Part shown: in pieces, positions 2,400 through 61,141 of the stretch | How positions within the stretch are numbered: the stretch's first letter is position 1 | Layout of the letters: each line of letters opens with the position of its first letter | Origin: Eunapius fragilis | Taxonomy: Eukaryota; Porifera; Demospongiae; Spongillida; Spongillidae | Assembly (NCBI GenBank): GCA_963681505.1 | Contig: OY811974.1 | Span: 4,389,271-4,453,270 of the forward strand | DNA length: 64,000 nucleotides | Direction: 5' to 3' | Made by a program: the position numbers and the translations under genes | The notes under the pieces: model-generated | Seen by the model: only the letters and a program-made list of their open reading frames with translations | Databases searched by the model: none | Told to the model about the DNA's origin: nothing

Positions 2400-2490
2400 A
2401 GGGACAAAACACCTGGAGAGGATGGCTGTGGCATTGGCTCTAACTAGATTGAGGGTCAGCCTCCCATATAAGGCAGCTAGGACCTCTTAC
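2400..2490 (-). pseudogene. Very short 3'-end fragment of R2-type retrotransposon
   Basis: The minus strand reads LYGRLTLNLVRANATAILSR, the extreme C-terminus seen at 2035-2295. Only this tail survives; a T-rich and ATT-repeat stretch lies beside it at 2490-2512. Confidence 0.55.
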
Positions 2491-2514
2491 TATTTTTTTA
2501 TTATTATTATTGAT

Positions 2515-2816
2515 GATATATGATACAGTATGCACAAAACAAAACCTACCTACAGCATTAACACGCACAGTTTACAGGGAGCGGGATAGGATGGCTCGAG
2601 ACTTTGCTCTCACAAGGGCTAAACTTAGTCTACCAAATAGTTCGTTACACAATAGCGACTTGGGGAGTACTGAGGCTATTCAGGCACTATCAAGACTTGC
2701 CACACGTTTGTCCACCAGGCAGGGTCTCCCCAAGTCGCTAGTGTGTAACTCCCTGTAAACTGTGCATGTTGATGCTGTAGGTAGATTTTGTTTTGTGCAT
2801 ACTGTATCATATATTT
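2515..2816. repeat. Palindromic fold-back retrotransposon tail
   Basis: The outer arms (about 2515-2580 and 2755-2816) are near-perfect inverted copies. A second inverted pair (about 2636-2665 and 2727-2753) is nested inside. Both arms are tails of the same R2-type element. The minus-strand arm encodes FGRLSLALVRAKSRAILSR. The plus-strand arm encodes EAIQALSRLATRLS, then skips the RANA segment and joins the same 3' end. The result is a short element end copied head to head with an internal deletion. Confidence 0.7.
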
Positions 2817-2832
2817 GTTCATTGATTAAATA

Positions 2833-4933
2833 TTATTTGTTTAAATAGAAAAAAGAGATAATAATATTTATATATTTAACACAGGTACACTGAATAACAA
2901 TAACATATAAAATAAAAATATGCATCACTGTCTCAAAAACAAGGCAATCTTCGCTCACAAAGGTGCCCAGGACTGAGACAGCATTACCTCGCTGTACCGC
3001 TACAGCGAGGCGTTGAAGTAAATATGGAAAGGACTTCACTTCCCCTGACACCTTACGAACACAAGCAAGATCCTTTAGGAATGAAAGAGTCTGTTTTCCA
3101 AACATACCCGATGTTTCTATAACAATTGGAGCAAACAGATACATGTACATGTACATACATGTATTGGGATCCAAATTTGAGTATTTGTCGGATTTCCGTT
3201 TCTCAGCTTGGTCAGCCACTGCCCCTGCCTCCTCTGATGCAACTCTGCTATAAGAAGGTGCATAGGTGTCAACACATGTTGCATCCCATACGAGAAGTTT
3301 CCCACATTTCCATGGAACCAAGGTAGCACCATCTGGTCTCTTACCATCAGAACGAGAGATTCCACTGGGTTCAAGTCGTGATGGAATTCGAGATGCCCCA
3401 AAAGCCCTGTGGATGATATCATTCAAAGAACTATGACGGTGATAACGACCTTGACTCTTAACACAATTAAGGCCATGGGTGGCAAAGGCAGTGACCTCAC
3501 AACCACAGTGATGGCAACTATGTGGTTTACAAAATGCCAAGCCAAGACGGAGGCTGACAGCAATCTGAAAGGTGGAGTCATCCATTCGGAGACCCAATGA
3601 AGATAACGGCAGTGCATTAAGCCAAATGCCTGATTCTTCTGAAAAAGCAGCTAGAAGGCGACTTTTGGAAGACTCATTCGTTGCTGAGTTCAATAGATTT
3701 TCTTTCATGGCTGGGATTGTCGGTATGTCCCATGACTTTTGGTGATAGGAAGTGATACCTTCTGGAGGAGATTGGTTACATCTGTTGGACCATAAGGCAA
3801 GAGCTTCCTGAAAACTGGGTAAATCAGTATCACTGAACTGTGGGGGAAGAATTTGATCGACTAGAGTGGAGGAGGCAGCAGCAGAAGCCAGATAGGCAGA
3901 AGGTGCCAGCTGCACAACACTCCTAATTCCAAGACCACCATGTCTTATCGGAAGAACAGCTTGAGTCCACACAGAATGATCACTGGAGAGGTAGATATTG
4001 AAGGTGTTGCACATAATTGTTTTGAGAACAGCATCGTACTGCTGAAGTTGTGGTGATAAGAAGCATGGTGCTGTGCGAAGACAGTACAACAGCTTTGGAA
4101 GGGCACTGGAATGGCGCAATAGAAGGTAGGCATCATGTGTTGATAGGAGTGGCAATCTCTCACCTATGATTTTTAGAAAATTAGTCTTCTCAGTAAGTAC
4201 TGATGAAATACCAGGCACATAAAGGTGAACCCAGTAGAGTGGCCATAGATAGGTTTACAATCCTTGAACCAGGGAGTAGAGAGAGAATACTGTTTTGGGA
4301 ATCAGGTACAATCTCACCTTTTTGGGGGCTAAGTTGTAGGCCAACGTCTTTGGCACCTTGCTTGAACATGACAAGATCATTGGAAATATCCTCCACACCT
4401 CCTCCCAGGCTGATATCATCAAGGTATGACATTCTTAACTCTGAATGTAGAGCCAATAGAAGGTGTTGAATAGATAAACAAAAAAGGAGTGGGCCAAGGG
4501 GGTCACCCTGTTGTATTCCTTCACATGAATGAATCACGCTATCATCCCAAAACAGAGATGATGATGCAGAATAGACAGAGTGGATAAAGGGAAAGATGGA
4601 TGGGGCTAGCTGTTCTACTGATGCAAGCATTTTATCTCTCCGTACTGTGTTGAAAGCATTAGTGAAGTCTAGCTTGAGGAGTGCTTTATTGGCTGTAAGC
4701 TTACTGAGATATAATCGTGCAGCCTCAGCCCCAAGTTGAACTCCATAACCGAGTTGACGTGGCATTAGCAGTTTGACTACATCACTCTTCACTCCCCCTC
4801 CAGCAACTTTAGCTGCAAGCCTCCGGAGGGTACTGCTAACTGCTATAGGTCGTATTATTATTTTGAATGAATTGTTCCATGTTTTCTGATACAGTTTATT
4901 GTATGACATTATTATGAAGTGTTTGTACCACAT
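2833..4933 (-). mobile_element. R2-type non-LTR retrotransposon: RT plus restriction-like endonuclease
   Basis: Two overlapping minus-strand frames cover RT to C-terminus. The frame at 4933-4190 holds the RT: RPIAVSSTLRRLAAK, LKLDFTNAFNTV, EGIQQGDPLGPLLF and the active site MSYLDD. A single frameshift near 4200-4218 leads to the 461-codon frame at 4218-2833. That frame contains the thumb region (RHGGLGIRSVVQLAPSA), a Cys/His knuckle (CHHCGCEVTAFATHGLNC) and a PD-(D/E)xK-like endonuclease block (KRPDGATLVPW, LLVWDATCVDT). It ends with QRGNAVSVLGT. Such endonucleases define R2-like elements that nick their target and prime on it. The 5' end is cut near 4860, so the N-terminal zinc finger and first RT block are absent. 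It is the best-preserved copy in the window but not active as it stands. Confidence 0.85.
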
Positions 4934-10640: not shown

Positions 10641-11545
10641 AGGTGTGGACACCCAGTACCCCAGGGAGGTGTGCACAACCTGTACCCCGGGGGGGGTGGG
10701 GGTGTGGACACCCTGTACCCCTGGGAGGTGTGGACACTCTGTACCCCGGGGGGGTGTGGGCACACTGTACCTCGGGGGTTGTGGACACCCTGTACCCCAA
10801 GGATGTGTGGGCACCCTGTACCCCTGGGAGGTGTGGACACTCTGTACCCCGGGGGGGTGTGGGCACACTGTACCTCGGGGGTTGTGGACACCCTGTACCC
10901 CAAGGATGTGTGGGCACCCTGTACCCCTGGGAGGTGTGGACACTCTGCACCCCTGGGAGGTGTGGACACGTCCTGGGAGGTGTGCACCCTGTACCCCTGG
11001 GAGGTGTGGACACCCTGTACCCCTGGGAGGTGTGGGACACCCTGTACCCCTGGGAGGTGTGGACACCCTGTACCCCTGGGAGGTGTGGACACCCTGTACC
11101 CCTGGGAGGTGTGGACACCCTGTACCCCTGGGAGGTGTGGATACCCTGTACCCTTGGGAGGTGTGGACACCCTGTACCCCTGGGAGGTGTGGACACTCTG
11201 TACCCCTGGGAGGTGTGGACCCTGTACCCATGGGAGGTGTGGACACCCTGTACCCCTGGGAGGTGTGGGACACCCTGTACCCCTGGGAGGTGTGGACACC
11301 CTGTACCCCTGGGAGGTGTGGACACCCTGTACCCCTGGGAGGTGTGGACACCCTGTACCCCTGGGAGGTGTGGGCACCCTGTACCCCTGGGAGGTGTGGA
11401 CACCCTGTACCCTTGGGAGGTGTGGACACCCTGTACCTCTGGGAGGTGTGGACACCCTGTACCCTTGGGAGGTGTGGACACCCTGTACCCCTGGGATGTG
11501 TGGACACCCTGTACCCCTGGGAGGTGTGGACACCCTGTATACACT
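10641..11545. repeat. 26-bp minisatellite (array A)
   Basis: About 35 tandem copies of a 26-bp unit, CCCTGTACCCCTGGGAGGTG plus TGGACA, with variants. It is open in several frames on both strands, which creates long spurious reading frames. It begins next to a pyrimidine tract (10600-10640) and ends 29 bp from the HIF1AN exon donor. Reverse-complement relatives lie at 28392-28735 and 33782-33965. Confidence 0.9.
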
Positions 11546-15193: not shown

Positions 15194-15201
15194 CGTTGGT
15201 G
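15194..15201. repeat. Left 8-bp target-site duplication of hAT
   Basis: CGTTGGTG directly precedes the left terminal repeat CAGTGGCGTAG and is repeated exactly at 21468-21475 after the right end. Eight base pairs is the diagnostic hAT duplication length. Confidence 0.9.
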
Positions 15202-15520
15202 CAGTGGCGTAGCGAGGGGGGGGGGGGGGGGGGGGGGGCAGGGGGGGACATATGTCCCCGGGCGCAGGGATAAGGGGGCGCCAAAAAGACGATAGATAAT
15301 TAATTATCTCGCCAACGCAAAGTCGCGAACGCCGAACGGGCACTTAATGCCACCTATAAGGTAAGAAGGTAAACATCTGCGCATGCACGCAAACTTTTAA
15401 ATTCCTTTCTAATCCCCGACATTGAAGATACGGTATACAATCGACACCTTCATATTCTGTTTAATACACAGTGTCACGCTTTTACAGTTCGGAATCTCGG
15501 ATCGCCAGATAACTTGTGAG

Positions 15521-15900
15521 CAGCCCCGGATCCAGGATTTGGCTAAGGGGGGGGCGGTTTAACTGGAGGGGCGGCACATTGACAATGAATACATGCGAAG
15601 TCAGGGGCGGATACGAAAAGCGGGGGGGGGGGGGGGTGCTGTCCGTTTTAGGCCTGATACGAAAAGCGCGGGGGGGTGCAGTCTGCTTCAGGTCCGATAC
15701 AAAAAGTGGGGGGGGGGGGGGGGGGGGGGGGGGGGGGCTGCTTGCCGTACGATGATTTATATATTGGTTTGTGTGTGCGCGCGTGATAGTACGTGGGGAA
15801 TGGAGCCGTGGGGGGCGGCAATTGGTCTCAGAGGGCGGCATTTCGTATGAATGGGGGGGGGGCGGCCGCCCCCCCCGAGCCTATGGTGGATCCGGGGCTG
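15521..15900. mobile_element. hAT-type MITE nested in the hAT 5' region
   Basis: The 380-bp element is bounded by CAGCCCCGGATCCA and its exact reverse complement TGGATCCGGGGCTG (14-bp inverted repeats). It is flanked by identical 8-bp duplications CTTGTGAG (15513-15520 and 15901-15908). Inside are three diverged copies of a GATACGAAAAGCGGGGG-type motif with long G runs. There is no coding frame. It lies about 35 bp upstream of the hAT transposase start, in its presumed promoter. Confidence 0.9.
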
Positions 15901-15934
15901 CTTGTGAGCGCTTAGGGAAGGCCCGGCTCAGAGA

Positions 15935-18487
15935 ATGAAACGTAGCGGAGCTCAAAGTCGCAAAAGAAGGAAGGTACTAGAGAGTGAAGCAGCAAAATGC
16001 AGAAAAATGATGGAGGGTTTTCTCAGGAAGCAGCCTTTTTCTGCAGAATCAGATGGTGGTCATTTTCAGGATGATAAACTCAGGTCTGAAACATCCACTG
16101 ACGCAAATGAAATTGAAATGAACCACGACAATCATGACTCAATTAATGAAGATAACTCCACTAGCACATTGGACGATGCAAGTTCCTTCTTAGGCAATAT
16201 TACCTCTGTGGAGTGCAGATCTGGTAGCACACTTGACATTATAAGTTCTCATGACGTTGGCCATTTGACATTCGATCCAGTTTCACATCTTTCAGTCATA
16301 CCACAGTCCCTACGAGATGAAATGATAAAAGCAGGGTCAATTATGTTTCAGAATGCCTGCGGTACCTTTTCCACGTCAACTGGCGAACGTTCAATGACAC
16401 GCTCTTGGTTTCAGCGTCACCTTGCCAATGGAAGTATTGTGAACCGCTCTTGGTTATTATATTCACCACTAAATAAAGTTGCATATTGCTTTTGTTGTTT
16501 ATTGTTTACATCCTCATCGGCTAATTGCAGATCGGCTTTTGAATTAGGTACTGGGTTCAGCAAATGGAAGAAGCCAGAAAAATTAGTCTTACATGAGAAC
16601 AGTCCTAGTCATCGCAAATCGTTTACAATGTGGAAAGAAGCAGAGCGAAGAATAACTTCTGGTATAGGGATTGATGCTTGCACTGAAGCGATGATTCTAT
16701 CTGAAAAACAGCGATGGCGAGAAGTTTTAAAAACTATGCTAGCCTGTATAAAATATCTTGCTTCCCAAAAGTTAGCACTACGTGGTCATGAAGAACGATT
16801 GAGCAATGACTGTGATAATCCGGGAAACTTCCTTTCTCTCCTGAAACTGATTGGTCAATATGATCCTATTATTTCAGAACATCTGAAATATGCTAGAGAC
16901 AATCCTAAGTCTGTCTCATACTTATCCCCAGATATTCAGAACGAATTTATCAGTATTCTTGCAAACAGTGTAAGAAATCGATTGGTACAAGACATCATAA
17001 AAAGCAAGTACTATGGTTTACTCGTAGACTCAACACCTGATCTTGCCCATCGGGAGCAGTTATCACAGGTAATTCGGTTTGTTGACATTAATTTTGTATG
17101 CAAGAAAGTCTGTATCAAAGAAGTGTTTCTGGGTTTTATAGAGTTGCATTCATAAGATGCCTCTACCCTCGAGAAGGTCATTCTGGAGCGTTTGGAATCT
17201 GACGGAATACCTCTGGGTGATTGCAGGTCACAGTGCTATAATGCATCTGTAATGGCTGGTCATATATCAGGTCTTCAACAACGGATATGTGCCAGAAATC
17301 ACCGTGCATTGTTTCTAAACTGTGACAATCACAGTTTGAACTTAGCTGGACTGCACTCTGCCAAACAGGATCCAATTGTTGTGACCTTTTTTGGAACAAT
17401 TGAAAAAATTTATACGTTTTTCTCGGCCTCAACCCTACGGTGGGAAGAGCTGGAAAATGTGCTTCCACTTGTAGTGAAGCGGGAATGTGAAACTCGATGG
17501 AGTTCACGTGCAGAGGCTGTGAAAGCAATTAGTATTGGTCTAGATGAATTGGTGGGATTGCTTGAAAAGTTATTCGATGATACAATCGTGACACATGATA
17601 CCAGAAGTGAAGCACAGATTCTGTTAGCAGCGATTTTGAAATTTGAATTCTTTGTTTTGTTGCAATTTTGGAACACAATTCTTGGAAAACTAGATCGTGT
17701 TCAGAAGAGGTTGCAGGATCCAAGCATGAATTTTAAGGATGCTGCAGCTGACCTGAATGGTTTGCAACATAACCTTGCCACTGATAGTGACAAATTGTGC
17801 CTTGATGCTACAGAGAATGCAAAGATAAGAGGCACAGATTGGGGAATAGATGTAGAGCGTCGGATTAGGAGAAGACGACGAATGCCTGATGAATTGTCTC
17901 TGGATGCCGGACTAATTGCCGAACAGGAGATTAAGCGAGTTTTAAGAAGCATTCTTGACAGGCTCCACCAAGAGATTTTAACACGTTTCTCGCGATTGGA
18001 TGACATGAATTCTAAATTCGGCTTTCTACTTGATGTGACAAATTTACTGAATAGCAATGATGCCCTTGCTCACCATAATCATTGTGTTGAGCTAGGAAAA
18101 TTCTATGACACTGACATAAACGGGGAAGACCTCTCTACTGAAGTTTGTGATTGCAGGATGCTACTTAATAATAGAGGCGATATTTCTCCAAAGACTCCTA
18201 TAGAACTTCTGTCATTTATCATATCATATGGAGATGATGTATTCCCGAATCTCCGCATTTCACTCCAAATATTGCTTACAATTGCTGTACATGTATCTAT
18301 CACCAGTTGTGAACGCTCTTTCAGCAAATTAAAACTAATTTTGTCCTACTTGCGTTCGTCGATGGGACAAGATCGATTTAGCAACCTTGCTCTATTGAGT
18401 ATAGAAAGAGAAACGTTGGAGTGTATTAACTTTGATGAAGTTATTGACACATTTGCATCAGCAAAAGTCAGACGAATATATCTATAG
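15935..18487 (+). pseudogene. hAT transposase (zinc-finger MYM1/DUF4371 type), one internal stop
   Basis: A single frame of about 850 codons interrupted only by TAA at 17153-17155 (FIELHS*DAS). The N-terminus is basic (RKRRK). A TTF-like zinc-finger region follows (SWFQRHLANG, AYCFCCLLF, FSKWKKPEKLVLHENSPSHR). The RNase H-like core has VDSTPDLAHREQLS with the likely first catalytic Asp. At the usual CYDNAS site the sequence reads CYNASVM, so the second catalytic Asp seems lost by an in-frame deletion. The C-terminal dimerisation domain is well kept (SITSCERSFSKLKLI, YLRSSMGQDRFSNLALLSIE) and carries the candidate catalytic Glu. The start at 15935 follows the MITE closely. Family is firm; inactivity rests on the stop and the missing Asp. 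Confidence 0.85.
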
Positions 18488-18623
18488 CAAGAAACAAGTT
18501 TCATTTCCGTGTATTATACATGTGAATGATTGAAAATAGCGGTTATATAACACACAGGTACGAATAGCGCGCGCGGGGGGGGGGGGGCGCCATTAGGGCG
18601 TTATGTACCCGGGCGCTCAACTA

Positions 18624-21449
18624 CACGGCCAATAATTTGACAGTGAACCAGGGGCGTTTACGTTGGCGTTACGCTCGAGTATTTGTATCCGCGTAACGCT
18701 AGCGATCGGCACCGCTTTTTAATTTTAAAGTAACATTGTTTCGCGTATCGGTGGCGTGTTCTTGTCAGTACGTGAACGTAAACGTCGATGTATAGCCAGA
18801 TTATGCAAAAATCCGATACGGTAGCGTTTATGTGTAGTCAATAAGCATAAAAATAAGAATAAAAATTACATCGCATTATGCATACAAAAAATATTCAAAC
18901 AATACATGTCATTGTTCCAGTTGTGATGAAACAGTTTTCGTGGCAGAAATCTTGCTTGTGCCTTTCAACAGTGGTAGCAGTAATGGTGTTCATCGAAGAT
19001 CACATTGGTGTACCAAAGAAACTGATGTCTTGAAGTCTTGAGAAGGAATAAACCGAAGAATGTTTGTACGTGTCATCAAAGGGGATTCAAATTCATCCAG
19101 GACTGGTGCTCCTTCAGGTGTCAAGACAGGCTCCATGTGACGTACAACACAAAAGGTTGCCATGTCGACTTGAAAACAAGCAACCAGAAGTCCGATCTCT
19201 AAGTATGCATGTATAAGTTTAAGGTTTAAAAGAAACTTCTACATTAATCAATGCAAACTTACAGTAATATTGGCTGGTGATTTGTGTTGAATGAAGTCGC
19301 ATATGTTAATCAAGAGCCCATCAGACACAACGATGGTACTGCCACTTGTCACTTGTTGGTCTCTGTCCAATCCATGAGGCAGTTGAACTGTGAAACTTGG
19401 GTCAAGACTGTTCAAGATAACCTCACCAACCTTAGCAATGCTTAGCTTTATTAAGTCCAAACTGCATTTAATTGAATTTGAGTGCTACGAAGTTAAAATG
19501 TAGAGATTATTTTTTTTGTTAATTGTAATCCCTCCCAAAAAAGCAAACATGCAGGCAAAACTTGCCTTACGCAATGATCCTGGCTTATGTATGTGCTTAT
19601 TTTGTTTAGAATCAATTCCGTAGAGACATTCTTGTACTTCTGCTGATTCATAAAGCCTCACTAGGTCATCACCACACCTAATTCATAGAAGGCTAAAGGA
19701 CATAACACACAAGTAAACTGCATATACCTTTCAGATGGTTTGTAGTAACTTTCTGAAAACATAAATTGAATTGACATTGACATTGAAGTATGAATCAAAT
19801 CTGCATGCAATACTTACTTCATTAATTAGCAAAGTCCCATTATCAGAGTACTTGTAATGTGCCTTGCCCAGGTGTTGGCTTGTGGCATGACCGCTGTGAT
19901 ACTAGTGACTGGTGCTATGATGTACAAACTGGGCTCAGTTGGATGGTGCTCCAATAATAGTGCTTCTGCAAACACACCATCATGTTGTTCCTAAATATAG
20001 AAATGGAGTTACTTGCTTCTTCATTACAGACACACATGCAGGCACACAAAGTTATACCTGACATAGAAACTTTTGTATGCAGCATAAATGTTTCACATCA
20101 TTATAGACGCACTGAACAAAGTCGTTGAGAAATATGTGACCAACAGCAGGTGACACAACCATTGGAGAATAGAACCTCCTATTTGATCTCCACTGCATAC
20201 CATGGTACATTTCTCTAATGCATGTAAGAAAAACATCACATTGCTAATTCTTTTGGAGCATCAAGAATGGTACCTGAAATCTTTCTGGGGTACTACAGGA
20301 AAACGCACAAGGTTCTTTGAAATTTGATGGTTTGCCATACATTTCTTTACAGTATCCACAATGGAATTGACATAAAATGATATCCCACTAGATGTTGTAT
20401 GCTGAAAATACATAGCCAATCAATAAAAGGAAAATGGATAATCAAATGTATACCAAGGTTGGTGCTGTGTATCCTGTACAGAGGTGACGCTTTACGATTG
20501 TAGTCACACTTGGAAGGGATGAGTGTAGGCATCTTAGTGTGTGGAAGATGAATTTCAGGCTTCGTTGTCCCTATACATAATACATTTGCATTTTACATAT
20601 TCTATGGGTTATACTGCATGGATTGGGATTTCGTAATGCACTTATTTTTATACTCTAAAATGTAGCAATGCTTATGCACTGAGCATCAGATTCTACATCT
20701 AGCACAACACACTTTAATCGTAAATTCTTGGCAATGTCCGTTTTACTTACCATTGGTCGAGGACAATGAGCGATGAGATATGCCATTGCTTCAATCTTTG
20801 GCGAAAATGGTTTGTACCGCCCATTGACATGAGGGTCGCTTTGGATGAGACTCCACTGTCATCTAGAACATGTCCCATACAATTAATAGTATAGTAAACT
20901 TGAAAATCAGGAATACATGCTTACCCTCATCTGTACTAGAAGCGTCATCACTGCAACAATCATCGATACTGTGACCATCATCTGACTCACTAGGTTGTGA
21001 AGCTGAGACTCCAGACAAAGCAGAGCACGTGGCGGTAATTGGTTCTTCTATGTACGAACTAGTTACATTGTCCATGCTATCACAATAATCAAGTCTTCTC
21101 ACGTTGTCCAGATGGTACTGCGTTTCAAAGTGCCTTTCATACTTCGATTTGAAACTGCGCAAATCTATTGTGAGCAGCAGCCATTTTTTTAACGCTCACG
21201 TGACTTCGACTGCGTTGAATACCATTCCCATCGCAGCCGTAACGCCCGAGTTACTCATGCCAACAACGTTACGCTTCGGATATTACCCTACGTAAATTAC
21301 CCGTTTAATTCGCTAGCGTATTCACCCCTATCAAAACAAGCGTAACGCTAACGTTTAAATCACGGTTGCGTATTCGGCACGATTATCAGGTACGTATTGT
21401 CAAAGTTTGACCTTCGTTAGCGTTACGCATCCGGTAGGAATTGGCCGTG
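18624..21449. mobile_element. TA-flanked element with unknown multi-exon gene, nested in hAT
   Basis: The ends CACGGCCAAT (18624) and ATTGGCCGTG (21440-21449) are inverted repeats, each flanked by TA. Both subterminal regions carry repeated GCGTTACGC/GCGTAACGC motifs (about 18667, 18693, 21238, 21270, 21340, 21419), as expected of transposase-binding sites. The boundary lies inside the hAT right end, and removing it restores a short hAT terminus. TA duplication suits Tc1/mariner-like elements, but no such transposase is visible. Confidence 0.65.
18990..21160 (-). CDS. Unrecognised intron-rich gene carried by the TA-flanked element
   Basis: At least nine minus-strand exons with good splice borders can be read: about 21160-20925 (YERHFETQYHLD; acidic Ser/Asp-rich end), 20855-20751 (HVNGRYKPFSPKIEAMAYLI), 20570-20454 (HTKMPTLIPSKCDY), 20401-20274 (FYVNSIVDTVKKCMANH), 20214-20058 (RFYSPMVVSPAVGHIFLNDF), 19990-19818, 19680-19565 (DDLVRLYESAEVQECLYGID), 19460-19262 (LSIAKVGEVILNSLDP) and about 19203-18990, ending LVHQCDLR and TGA. 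Several donors are consensus GTAAGT/GTAAGC. One exon (19990-19818) appears to need a 1-nt frame change. No known domain is recognised. It could be the transposase of its carrier, a passenger, or a captured host gene. No upstream in-frame ATG was found for the first exon. Confidence 0.5.
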
Positions 21450-21467
21450 TATCACACTACGCCACTG

Positions 21468-21475
21468 CGTTGGTG
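21468..21475. repeat. Right 8-bp target-site duplication of hAT
   Basis: CGTTGGTG follows the right terminal repeat CTACGCCACTG and matches 15194-15201 exactly. Confidence 0.9.
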
Positions 21476-28391: not shown

Positions 28392-28735
28392 ATGAGGGGT
28401 ACAGGGTGTCCACCACACCTCCCATGCAGGGGTAGAGGGGTCCACACCTCCCATGGGTACAGGGTGCATGTCCACACCTCCCAGGGGTACAAGGTGTCCA
28501 CACCTCCCTGGGGTACAGGGTGTCCACACCTCCCAGGGGTACAGGGTGTCCATACCTCCCAAGGGTACAGGGTGTCCACACCTCCCAAGGGTACAGGGTG
28601 TCCACACCTCCCAAGGGTACAGGGTGTCCACGCCTCCCAGGGGTACAGGGTGTCCACACCTCCCAGGGGTACAAGGTGTCCACACATCCCAGGGGTACAG
28701 GGTGTCCACACCTCCCAGGGGTACAGGGTGTTCAT
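28392..28735. repeat. 26-bp minisatellite (array B, inverted relative to A)
   Basis: About 13 copies of GGGTACAGGGTGTCCACACC plus TCCCAG, the reverse complement of the 10641-11545 unit. Several units are cut or extended at the left end. It lies between the retrotransposon remnant and a broken HIF1AN exon. Confidence 0.9.
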
Positions 28736-28950
28736 ACCACTCACTGATCACAAACATTAGGGTGATGTGTGGTCCTCAAACTGTAATCAGATTCCCAGAA
28801 AGGTTCTTGTCATCATGGAACTATTTACTGTAAATCATGGCCATTCAACAGCAAATATTCTTTGCCAACATGAAGTGCTTTTTTGATTAGCAGTGACATA
28901 CTTTCATGTACAACAGCAACCAGTGTTGTTTCTAGGCAGCAACTTAAATT

Positions 28951-33700: not shown

Positions 33701-33781
33701 GTGGATTTGGACAGAGGAAGCCTATTATGTGACTTTACAATGACCCAAGCTGCATGTTCCACTTGCTGTGACCACAAATCC

Positions 33782-33965
33782 CAGGGGTACAACAGGGCGT
33801 CCAACACCTCCCAGGTGTACAGGCTAGGGTGTTCACACCTCCCTGGGGTATATACAGGGTGTCCACACCTCCAAGGGGTACAGGGTGTCCACACCTCCCG
33901 GGGGTTCAGGGTGTCCACACCCCCCAGGGGTTCAGGGTGTCCACATGCACATCCCAGGGGTAGGT
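33782..33965. repeat. 26-bp minisatellite (array C)
   Basis: About seven diverged copies of GGGTACAGGGTGTCCACACC plus TCCCAG, same orientation as array B. Units at the left are irregular in length. Confidence 0.85.
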
Positions 33966-39414: not shown

Positions 39415-40078
39415 TGTTCTCCTCCCTTCTCTCCTCCTGCTCCCTTCTCTCCTCCTACTCCCTTCTCTCCTCCTGCTCCATTCTCTCCTCCAGCTCCCTT
39501 CTCTCTTTCTGCTCCCTTCTCTCTTCCTGCTCCCTTCTCTTCATGTCCTCCATTCTCTCCTCCAGCTCCCTTATCTCCTCCTACTCCCTTCTCTCCTCCT
39601 GCTCCCATCTCTCCTTCTGCTCCCTTATCTCCTCCTGCTCCCTTCTCCTCCTCCTGCTCCCTTCTCTCCCCCTACTCCCTTCTTTCATCCTGCTCCCTTC
39701 CCTCCTCCTGCACCCTTCCCTTCTTCTACTCCCTTTTTCTCTCCTCCTGCTCCCTTACCTCCTCCTGCTCCCTTCTCTCCCCTACTCCCTTCTCTCCTCC
39801 TGCTCCCTCCTCTCCTCCTGCTTTCTTCTCTCCTCCTGCTCCCTTCTCTTCTCCTGCTTTCTTCTCTCCCCTACTCCCTTCTCTCCTCCTGCTCCCTTCT
39901 CTCCTCCTGCTCCCATCTCCCCTCCTGCTCCCTTCTCTCCTCCTGCACCCTTCTCTCCTCCTGCTCCCTGCCTCCTCCTGCTCCCTTCCCTCCTCCTGCT
40001 CCCTTCTCTGCTCCTGCTCCCTTCTCTCCTTCTGCTCCCTTCTCTCCTCCTGCTCCCTTCTCTCCTCCTGCTCCCTAG
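39415..40078. repeat. Pyrimidine minisatellite at a 3' splice site
   Basis: About 660 bp of imperfect CTCCTCCTGCTCCCTTCTCT units (about 21-24 bp). The plus strand has almost no purines apart from the G of CTGCTC. It ends CTCCCTAG directly before the HIF1AN last exon, so it serves as an enormous polypyrimidine tract. Long open frames on both strands are repeat artefacts. Confidence 0.9.
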
Positions 40079-57090: not shown

Positions 57091-57764
57091 CTAATCTATG
57101 CTATGCTGTCTAAGCAAGTGTATTATATCAGAATGTGGCACTCATGAGTATGGCAGCTATCCTGCTCTGTACGTTTGCAAATGTTTGCACTTGGTAGTTC
57201 TAAGAAGTACTGACGCTAGCATAGACCAAAGGAAGGGTTTAAACCACAGAGAAAGGTCTGCACCCGTGGTAATGTTTACATACTATACCGCAAGATTGTA
57301 TCGCTATGAACGATGTATAGTTTTCATGTAAAGGCATGGCTGCATTTATAAAAGATAAGCTTACATGCATACTGAGCTGCCGTTCCATGTATGAACATCG
57401 TCATGCATGCTAACACTTTAATAATTGACAACGCTTTTATGATTCACGAGACGTCAAATACGCTGCTTTTTTCTCCTCCAGTGTATGCACGATCGATCTC
57501 GAAAGCGATTTCGGTTACGAGAACTTCGCATTGAGAACACAAGAGCGCTTAGACATTACTATTGACGAGACAATCCTACCGGATGTGGGCGTATCAAGGC
57601 GCTTGCTGAGATGGAAGGGTGTGTCCTGCATGGAGCAAACTAGGCATTTAACATAGAGCACATTGGTGCCATGCCAAGATATTGCCACACATATCTGTTC
57701 ATATGACCGTCGTTGATTTCCCCACCTTTAACTATTACCCACCCCCACCTCTAACTACATGTAG

Positions 57765-59038
57765 TAAGAGGTGGGGGGTGGGGGACCTGAGTATAATAAG
57801 AGGTGGGGGGTGGGGGACCTGAGTATAATAAGAGGTGGGGGGTGGGGGACCTGGGTATAGTAAGAGGTGGGGGGTGGGGGACCTGGGTATAGTAAGAGGT
57901 GGGGGTGTGGGGGGACCTGGGTATAGTAAGAGGTGGGGTGTGGGGGAGGGGGACCTTGGTATAATAAGAGGTGGGGGTGTGGGGGACCTGGGTATAATAA
58001 GAGGTGGGTGTGGGGGGACCTGGGTATAGTAAGAGGTGGGGGTGTGGGGGGACCTGGGTAGGTGGGGGGTGGGGGACCTGGGTGTAGCAAGAGGTGGGGG
58101 TGTGGGGGACCTGGGTGTAATAAGAGGTGGGGGTGTGGGGGACCTGGGTATAATAAGAGGTGGGGGTGTGGGGGGACCTGGGTATAGTAAGAGGTGGGGG
58201 TGGGGGACCTGGGTATAGTAAGAGGTGGGGTGGGGGACCTGGGTGTAGTAAGAGGTGGGGGGTGTGGGGGACCTGGGTGTAGTAAGAGGTGGGGGTGTGG
58301 GGACCTGGGTATAATAAGAGGTGGGGGTGTGGGGGGACCTGGGTATAATAAGAGGTGGGGGTGGGGGACCTGGGTATAGTAAGAGGTGGGGGTGTGGGGG
58401 GACCTGGGTAGGTGGGGGGTGGGGGACCTGGGTGTAGCAAGAGGTGGGGGTGTGGGGGACCTGGGTGTAATAAGAGGTGGGGGGGTGGGGGACCTGGGTA
58501 TAATAAGAGGTGGGGGTGTGGGGGGACCTGGGTATAGTAAGAGGTGGGGGTGTGGGGGGACCTGGGTATAGTAAGAGGTGGGGTGGGGGACCTGGGTGTA
58601 GTAAGAGGTGGGGGGTGTGGGGGACCTGGGTGTAGTAAGAGGTGGGGGTGTGGGGACCTGGGTGTAGTAAGAGGTGGGGGTGTGGGGGACCTGGGTATAG
58701 TAAGTGGTGGGGGTGTGGGGACCTGGGTATAATAAGAGGTGGGGGTGTGGGGGGACCTGGGTATAATAAGAGGTGGGGGTGGGGGACCTGGGTATAGTAA
58801 GAGGTGGGGGTGTGGGGGGACCTGGGTAGGTGGGGGGTGGGGGACCTGGGTGTAGCAAGAGGTGGGGGTGTGGGGGACCTGGGTGTAATAAGAGGTGGGG
58901 GTGTGGGGGACCTGGGTATAATAAGAGGTGGGGGTGTGGGGGGACCTGGGTATAGTAAGAGGTGGGGGTGTGGGGGGACCTGGGTATAGTAAGAGGTGGG
59001 GGTGTGGGGGACCTGAGTATAGTAAGAGGTGGGGGGTA
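57765..59038. repeat. 32-33-bp minisatellite with higher-order structure
   Basis: About 38 units of GGGGACCTGGGTATAGTAAG plus AGGTGGGGGTGTG. A distinctive short unit (CCTGGGTAGGTGGGGGGTGG) recurs at about 58047, 58402 and 58822. Blocks of roughly 350-420 bp have therefore been copied as higher-order units. Frames on both strands are repeat artefacts. It abuts the right terminal repeat. Confidence 0.9.
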
Positions 59039-60851: not shown

Positions 60852-61141
60852 CAGTGGCGTAGGAAAAGGGGGGGCAGGGGGGGCCATGCCCCCCTACTTT
60901 TATACCAGTGATACTACAGATAAATGCGTAATTTGTAATAAATTGCACTGATTCTAGTGTAGTTTTGTAACGTCGTTAGATGCAAATAGCGTTGGCTTCT
61001 GGGGCACAACCCCAGAGTCCCAGACCCCAATGCGGAAGCTTACAGCACTCCCCTAGCTGGCTGGGGGAGGGGCACCGCTCTCCCGCCATGATGACCATCG
61101 AACTTTGCCCCCCCACTTTTAAACTCCTTCCTACGCCGCTG
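60852..61141. mobile_element. hAT-type MITE
   Basis: CAGTGGCGTAGGAA at the left and TTCCTACGCCGCTG at the right form a 14-bp inverted repeat with one mismatch. They share CAGTGGCGTAG with the autonomous hAT at 15202. No clean 8-bp duplication is visible. The interior is G/C-rich with no frame. Confidence 0.7.

Follow-up and report, generated by a model that had tools for sequence, protein, structure and literature searches.

A probable internally deleted, TA-inserting EnSpm/CACTA-like transposon nested within a hAT element of Eunapius fragilis

The window analysed here, a stretch of 64,000 nucleotides from a Eunapius fragilis contig (OY811974.1; C4:4389271-4453270), contains a 2.8-kb unit (18624-21449) lying inside a hAT transposon, and we conclude with high confidence that it derives by internal deletion from a TA-inserting cut-and-paste DNA transposon of the EnSpm/CACTA (CMCT) type and is non-autonomous. 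The complete element is 5.5-5.9 kb long and has a 15-exon transposase gene, with a shorter second gene of several exons placed head to head with it. In an ancestor of the window copy the second gene and the exons of the catalytic core were lost and a frame-shifting deletion arose in exon 1, with the 10-bp inverted repeats and subterminal CGTWACG repeats retained. The copy landed in a young hAT element with duplication of a TA. As a transposase recognises the ends, enzyme made elsewhere could still move it.

The ends of the unit are exact 10-bp inverted repeats, CACGGCCAAT at the left (18624..18633, + strand) and ATTGGCCGTG at the right (21440..21449, - strand), and together with the TA on either side (18622..18623 and 21450..21451) they form a 12-nt pair that is 100% complementary. 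A scan of the 219-Mb genome (24 contigs) with the patterns TACACGGCCAAYAATTTGA for left and TACACGGCCAAYTCCTACCGG for right ends, at most one mismatch being allowed, yielded 18 matches to the former and 15 to the latter, whereas the reversed patterns used as a control gave 0 left and 0 right matches in the same 219 Mb; the ends of the window element are therefore not a chance pairing. All 33 ends have TA without mismatch, and since TA is part of the search pattern, this count would reveal a one-base departure but not ends entirely without TA. From the coordinates, 13 units of 2.8 to about 7.5 kb can be assembled, each with one left and one right end, and 5 left and 2 right ends are unpaired. 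The preliminary description of this DNA had proposed that inverted ends with TA flanks delimit a unit, and the recurrence of these ends confirms it. Elsewhere, at C3:110541-131659, six CACGGCCAAT words lie on one strand within 21 kb and are absent from the matches to the longer end patterns; they are perhaps a tandem array of something else.

The TA is a true 2-bp target-site duplication of the element, as is seen from empty sites. Four hAT copies (on C1, C20, C9 and C19) lack the element, and its joined flanks, with a single TA, align with them unbroken across the junction, the alignments reaching 16-19 bases past it to where those copies end. The element therefore inserted into a pre-existing hAT copy and duplicated the TA. 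The joined flanks of a relative on C11, described below, similarly match an empty site at C12:8392421-8392713 without a break (90%, 1-300 of 300).

The surrounding hAT transposon extends from 15202 to 21467 (+ strand), with the ends CAGTGGCG..CGCCACTG and an identical 8-bp target site duplication, CGTTGGTG, on both sides (15194..15201 and 21468..21475), so that the proposed location of the unit inside a hAT is borne out; the element sits 16 bp from the right end. By our own reading of the letters, the C-terminus of the hAT transposase can be followed on the + strand up to about 18487. The stretch of 1.6 kb that lies left of the insertion recurs in the genome in at least four other copies at 97-98% identity, and this hAT family, with at least five copies including that of the window at 97-98% over 1.6 kb, is young. 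A poly-G tract near the right end of the hAT differs in length among copies, and another is present at the left end. Further CAGTGGCG.. starts followed by poly-G occur at window positions 60852 and 14679, and these may be termini of further hAT-type elements that carry G tracts. A slightly varying 26-bp minisatellite unit, AGGTGTGGACACCCTGTACCCCTGGG or the complement of it, makes up three separate arrays in the window, at 10641-11539, 28395-28738 and 33768-33945, and there are strand-skewed arrays at 39422-40076 and 57762-59035 (18-bp C-rich, 33-bp G-rich), which coincide with two large swings in GC skew.

Subterminal motifs had also been noted, and they are confined to the ends. The sequence CGTWACG occurs twice near the left end of the element (18667..18698, starts at 18667 and 18692) and four times near the right end (21238..21427, starts at 21238, 21267, 21341 and 21421), all six within 300 bp of the ends and none inside, and only once in the 57.7 kb of the window outside the hAT. 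A count of six was never reached in 5000 first-order Markov samples of the end sequence (mean 0.42). The count of six in the end 300 bp and none inside is the same in the copies on C23 and C11; four copies of a second subfamily, B, have three each, in every case at one end only, with 1 inner site in addition in one of these copies, and an element on C8 has 5 and 1 at its two ends. By analogy with known CACTA elements, these repeats may be bound by a transposon protein.

Other copies sharing the ends and the TA flanks, which the preliminary description would expect of a transposon family, are indeed present in the genome. A search with the window element found a full-length copy on C23 (94% identical), the C11 relative of 5545 bp, recovered in three pieces, and many further matches at 66-88%. 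Both C23 and C11 start and end with the same letters as the window element and have TA flanks. The T that characterizes the window-type end is present at 6 of the 33 ends (on C4, C11 and C23); the remaining 27, four of which carry one more mismatch, have C at that position, and from this sequence difference we class them as subfamily B. Three subfamily B copies (L049, L050 and L056, on C2 and C12) measure 6.8-7.4 kb between ends, longer than C11. The flank of the C11 element is, in our own reading, a putative retrotransposon coding sequence, and 9 of 15 matches to it cluster within 0.34 Mb (C10:6971662-7307724).

Between the window and C23 copies there are 80 substitutions over 2791 sites (K2P 0.029), and C11 is more distant from both (K2P 0.076 and 0.071 respectively). 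Both large deletions are common to window and C23, as is a 4-nt frame-shifting gap in exon 1, and the two copies lie at different, unrelated sites with different flanks, so their ancestor was already crippled before at least one later move. The window, C23 and C11 copies all retain both ends and six subterminal motifs. No intact transposase gene was found that belongs to the window's own subfamily, the C11 gene having stops.

The exons of the window element were defined by homology to the C8, C11 and C23 loci and correspond to C8 exons 1-6, the end of exon 11 and exons 12-15, all on the - strand. Exon 1 (20925..21185) is a remnant of the finger region with the 4-nt gap common to C23; it is followed by a remnant of exon 2 (20751..20862), exon 3 (20454..20570), exon 4 (20274..20401), exon 5 (20058..20214), a remnant of exon 6 (19818..19990) with a frame-shifting length change relative to both C11 and C23, a stub of exon 11 (19727..19774), exon 12 (19566..19677), exon 13/14 (19263..19484) and a remnant of exon 15 (18866..19199) with a stop/frameshift. 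The window and C23 copies lack exons 7-10 and most of exon 11, which C11 has, with stops. Their loss is marked by a deletion junction at 19766..19775 (- strand), which the first bases of the exon 11 stub overlap in the translated match, and a 12-nt alignment to exon 10 is taken for junction filler. The missing segment is about 1.36 kb long in C11 and includes the DDE core and the C(2)C and H(3)H motifs; because these catalytic exons are deleted, no transposase domain is apparent in the window copy. A second junction, at 21186..21210, marks the loss of the divergent second gene, a segment of about 1.35 kb in C11.

The minus-strand exons had been described as having consensus splice sites, which is correct for part of the gene: AG acceptors and GT donors are kept at exons 2-6 and 13/14, and exon 1 keeps its GT donor. 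It does not hold for exons 11, 12 and 15, of which exon 12 has a GC donor at the homologous place with a GT 5 nt upstream, and exon 15 has a shifted acceptor. Exon 4 differs in length between the window and C11, but this is a change in C11 itself, since C8 shares the 128 nt of the window and C11 is shorter. The homologous exons of the relatives stay within the element ends; an extension beyond the boundaries, which had been put forward as the mark of an ordinary host gene, is not seen.

Truncated products of P and CACTA elements act as repressors or DNA-binding accessories, and a comparable product, consisting of the N-terminal half or the C-terminal domain, could be imagined for the window copy. 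Most of exons 1-6 and 12-15 are retained in the window and C23 copies, and the lengths and splice sites of exons 3 and 5 are kept in both. We nevertheless regard it as very improbable that such a protein is made, given the frame-shifting length changes relative to C11 in exons 1, 2, 6 and 15 of the window copy and in exons 1, 2 and 15 of C23, and the finding of three copies with window-type ends.

Exon-by-exon comparison of the window with related loci led to an intact relative at C8:8191297-8197142 (L058/L074), an element of 5846 bp with the ends CACAACCAAA..TTTGGTTGTG and TA on both sides. Exons 1-14 of its transposase gene are each followed by a GT donor and exons 2-15 each preceded by an AG acceptor, and the 15 exons together have an uninterrupted frame of 957 aa. 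The protein contains, in order, the motifs DDTSGN, CDNP, CRIC, HLLLH and TERCESYN; C11 has CDNP, CRIC, HLVLH and NTEQCES, and is 28-72% identical to the C8 protein in aligned segments. The D/D/C(2)C/H(3)H/E series is present in C8 by motif and is deleted from the window copy. The gene in the window, which the preliminary description held to be of an unrecognised kind, is a transposase remnant whose full counterpart exists in C11 (degenerate) and C8 (intact). Over the 3.5 kb that were aligned, a second copy of the C8 type, at about 2122500-2128160 of C12, has 99.3-99.4% identity to C8; at the one end compared its homology to C8 stops at the same TA, with different sequence beyond, and this family has probably moved recently. 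We note that the C8 element, with its intact frame and both ends, and its C12 copy are a practical candidate for studying the choice of TA by a relative of CACTA and the function of the divergent second protein.

This second gene accounts for the extra sequence of about 1.35 kb near the other end of C11, where it lies on the opposite strand (L040, gene-oriented 2462-3590); it is shorter than the transposase gene, has several exons, is present in the C8 element as well and is missing from the window and C23 copies. Four C11 exon pieces recur in C8 (E-values 1e-13 to 7e-7). The last exon was found in 9 of the 17 other loci searched (E-values 6e-18 to 1.5e-6), in some with stops, and the other three pieces in none of these 17 at E-values up to 0.1. 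The second gene of C11 has no match in Pfam; that of C8 has nine, all below cut-off (best E-value 3e-3; BBS7_hp, SKA1 and others), which we take for coiled-coil similarity with no convincing known family. By analogy with maize TNPA, its product is a candidate binder of the subterminal repeats.

The family fits EnSpm/CACTA (CMCT) by its motif order, by two weak co-linear domain matches and by one profile comparison. One of three fragments of the C8 protein matches PF02992 (Transposase_21) with an E-value of 5e-4 (19.7 bits, cut-off 28.6); there is no PF02992 match for the two other fragments, for seven further pieces (three of them outside the PF02992 region) or for three core pieces, and the whole 957-aa protein has no transposase match in Pfam at E-values up to 1. 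The H(3)H-E segment matches PF13960 (DUF4218) with E-values of 0.13 in C8 and 3e-3 in C11. All of the Pfam matches are under the curated cut-offs (19.7 vs 28.6 and 17.8 vs 27 bits), and those to Transposase_21 and DUF4218 are weak but co-linear; in plant CACTA proteins DUF4218 follows Transposase_21. When four family cores were compared by hhalign with one EnSpm transposase of the same genome, the match (81%, E-value 1.2e-5) aligned the second D and the C(2)C motif, both of which are invariant in the four aligned cores, and none of 100 shuffled controls scored as high (at most 22.2 vs 38.3). The C8-type transposase would, to judge from these similarities, use CACTA-type catalysis. Ordinary EnSpm elements are also abundant in this genome, with at least 150 places matching PF02992 (150 of 305 candidates scored), those listed being above the cut-off, and none of 14 control genomes had a PF02992 match. 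A PDB search with the C8 core returned four sequences, all Nop56, which we treated as chance (E-values 0.8-1.1). There was no match in NCBIfam for one C8 fragment, and a core-profile scan of viral contigs gave 56 stretches that fit a pattern and 0 confirmed relatives.

The CMCT group is characterized, according to Kojima (2025; PMC12730594), by 5'-CA..TG ends, target-site duplications of 2-5 bp and C(2)C/H(3-4)H motifs, and the CAC..GTG ends and 2-bp TA duplication found here are of this kind. The repeated subterminal motifs seen in the present elements are likewise a trait of EnSpm/CACTA. The canonical plant CACTA features, a CACTA end and a 3-bp duplication, are absent, the ends being CACGG or CACAA and the duplication the 2-bp TA.

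Target duplication of TA is typical of Tc1/mariner and ISL2EU elements, and ISL2EU/YqaJ was our first guess from the TA. Elements of the ISL2EU/PHIS type have a THAP and DDE_Tnp_4 transposase and a YqaJ partner, and Pfam scans of the proteins from C8 and C11 returned none of these domains. It is highly unlikely that the window unit belongs instead to one of the other superfamilies (Tc1/mariner, ISL2EU/PHIS or KDZ), as a TA-inserting member with only a likeness to CACTA: no Tc1/mariner, Harbinger/ISL2EU or KDZ family is among the Pfam matches up to an E-value of 10 for the pieces scanned, and PMC12730594 describes the same succession of motifs, C(2)C and H(3)H included, for CMCT. KDZ elements (Zisupton etc.) were likewise rejected, there being no match and a 2-bp TA here vs the 8-bp duplication of Zisupton.

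The least probable reading, that the unit holds a captured host gene unrelated to transposition, as in Pack-TIR elements, draws on the many short exons, on the lack of a recognised domain in the window copy and on the lack of a Pfam transposase match for the whole C8 protein, and we discount it almost completely, since the same exons in the same order make up one gene with a D/D/C(2)C/H(3)H/E core inside the TA-flanked C8 and C11 elements and at least 99 such exon matches occur across the genome (48 of 1208 candidates scored), as expected for a transposon. Nor is an intron-rich gene out of place in such an element, as had been supposed, the soybean CACTA element Tgmt being described with a gene of 24 exons (PMC2613891). 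What survives of the suggestion of a new transposon family is that a real and divergent TA-inserting EnSpm-like family exists, belonging to a superfamily that is already known. Remnants of this type can pass as host orphan genes in annotation unless the parent element is found.

It is conceivable, though we think it rather doubtful, that the C8, C11 and window elements represent a separate EnSpm-like lineage, with TA targeting, ends of the form CAC..CCAA, a transposase that is encoded in 15 exons and has an N-terminal finger and a conserved C-terminal region, and a divergently transcribed coiled-coil-like partner. If so, a DDE enzyme would have come to choose TA in yet another way, beside those of Tc1/mariner, ISL2EU and ESTA; the genome also has a very recent pair of copies, with an intact transposase frame in one or both. 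We found no report of this family in the open-licence literature, Repbase being outside the search.

Among known systems, the animal CACTA-like TRC elements (SmTRC1, Aedes TRC and Spongebob_HMa / EnSpm-4N1_HM of Hydra) resemble the present family, as described in PMC1636069 and PMC4298943, in their 2-bp target duplications (established by empty sites for SmTRC1), a Transposase_21-type enzyme and shorter deletion derivatives such as SmTRC1d1. Their ends are short as well, CCCAGTCAAC (10 bp) in Aedes and CCCAGCCAAC.. in Hydra vs CACGGCCAAY here, but they start with CCC rather than CAC. The present elements further differ in having TA at all 33 ends (TA being in the pattern), a 15-exon transposase, a divergent second gene and a core too divergent for the Pfam cut-off. 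Fungal EnSpm-like ESTA elements, which we compared by description only, share an EnSpm-like core, C(2)C and H(3-4)H motifs and TA duplications, although the members reported in PMC12730594 are fungal and three families carry TET/JBP, which was not noticed here. Plavaka elements have 2-3 bp duplications and the C(2)C and H(3-4)H motifs, but their ends are TGT..ACA or CATCA..TGATG vs CAC..GTG here. No Plavaka family is among the Pfam matches up to an E-value of 10 for the C8 and C11 pieces scanned; the stretches DD.SGN..K.WN and DNP..{A/S}E may resemble those of Plavaka. Maize En/Spm and soybean Tgmt/Tgm, as described in PMC2613891, have a multi-exon transposase gene, internally deleted copies and an accessory protein that binds subterminal repeats, a role that is putative for the second protein here. 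They depart from the present family in the CACTA ends and 3-bp duplication of Tgmt, and the second gene of the present elements matches no known family convincingly. Deletion derivatives of En/Spm move in trans while their cis-acting ends are kept (PMC2613891), and by analogy the window copy, with both of its ends retained, may have been moved in the same way.
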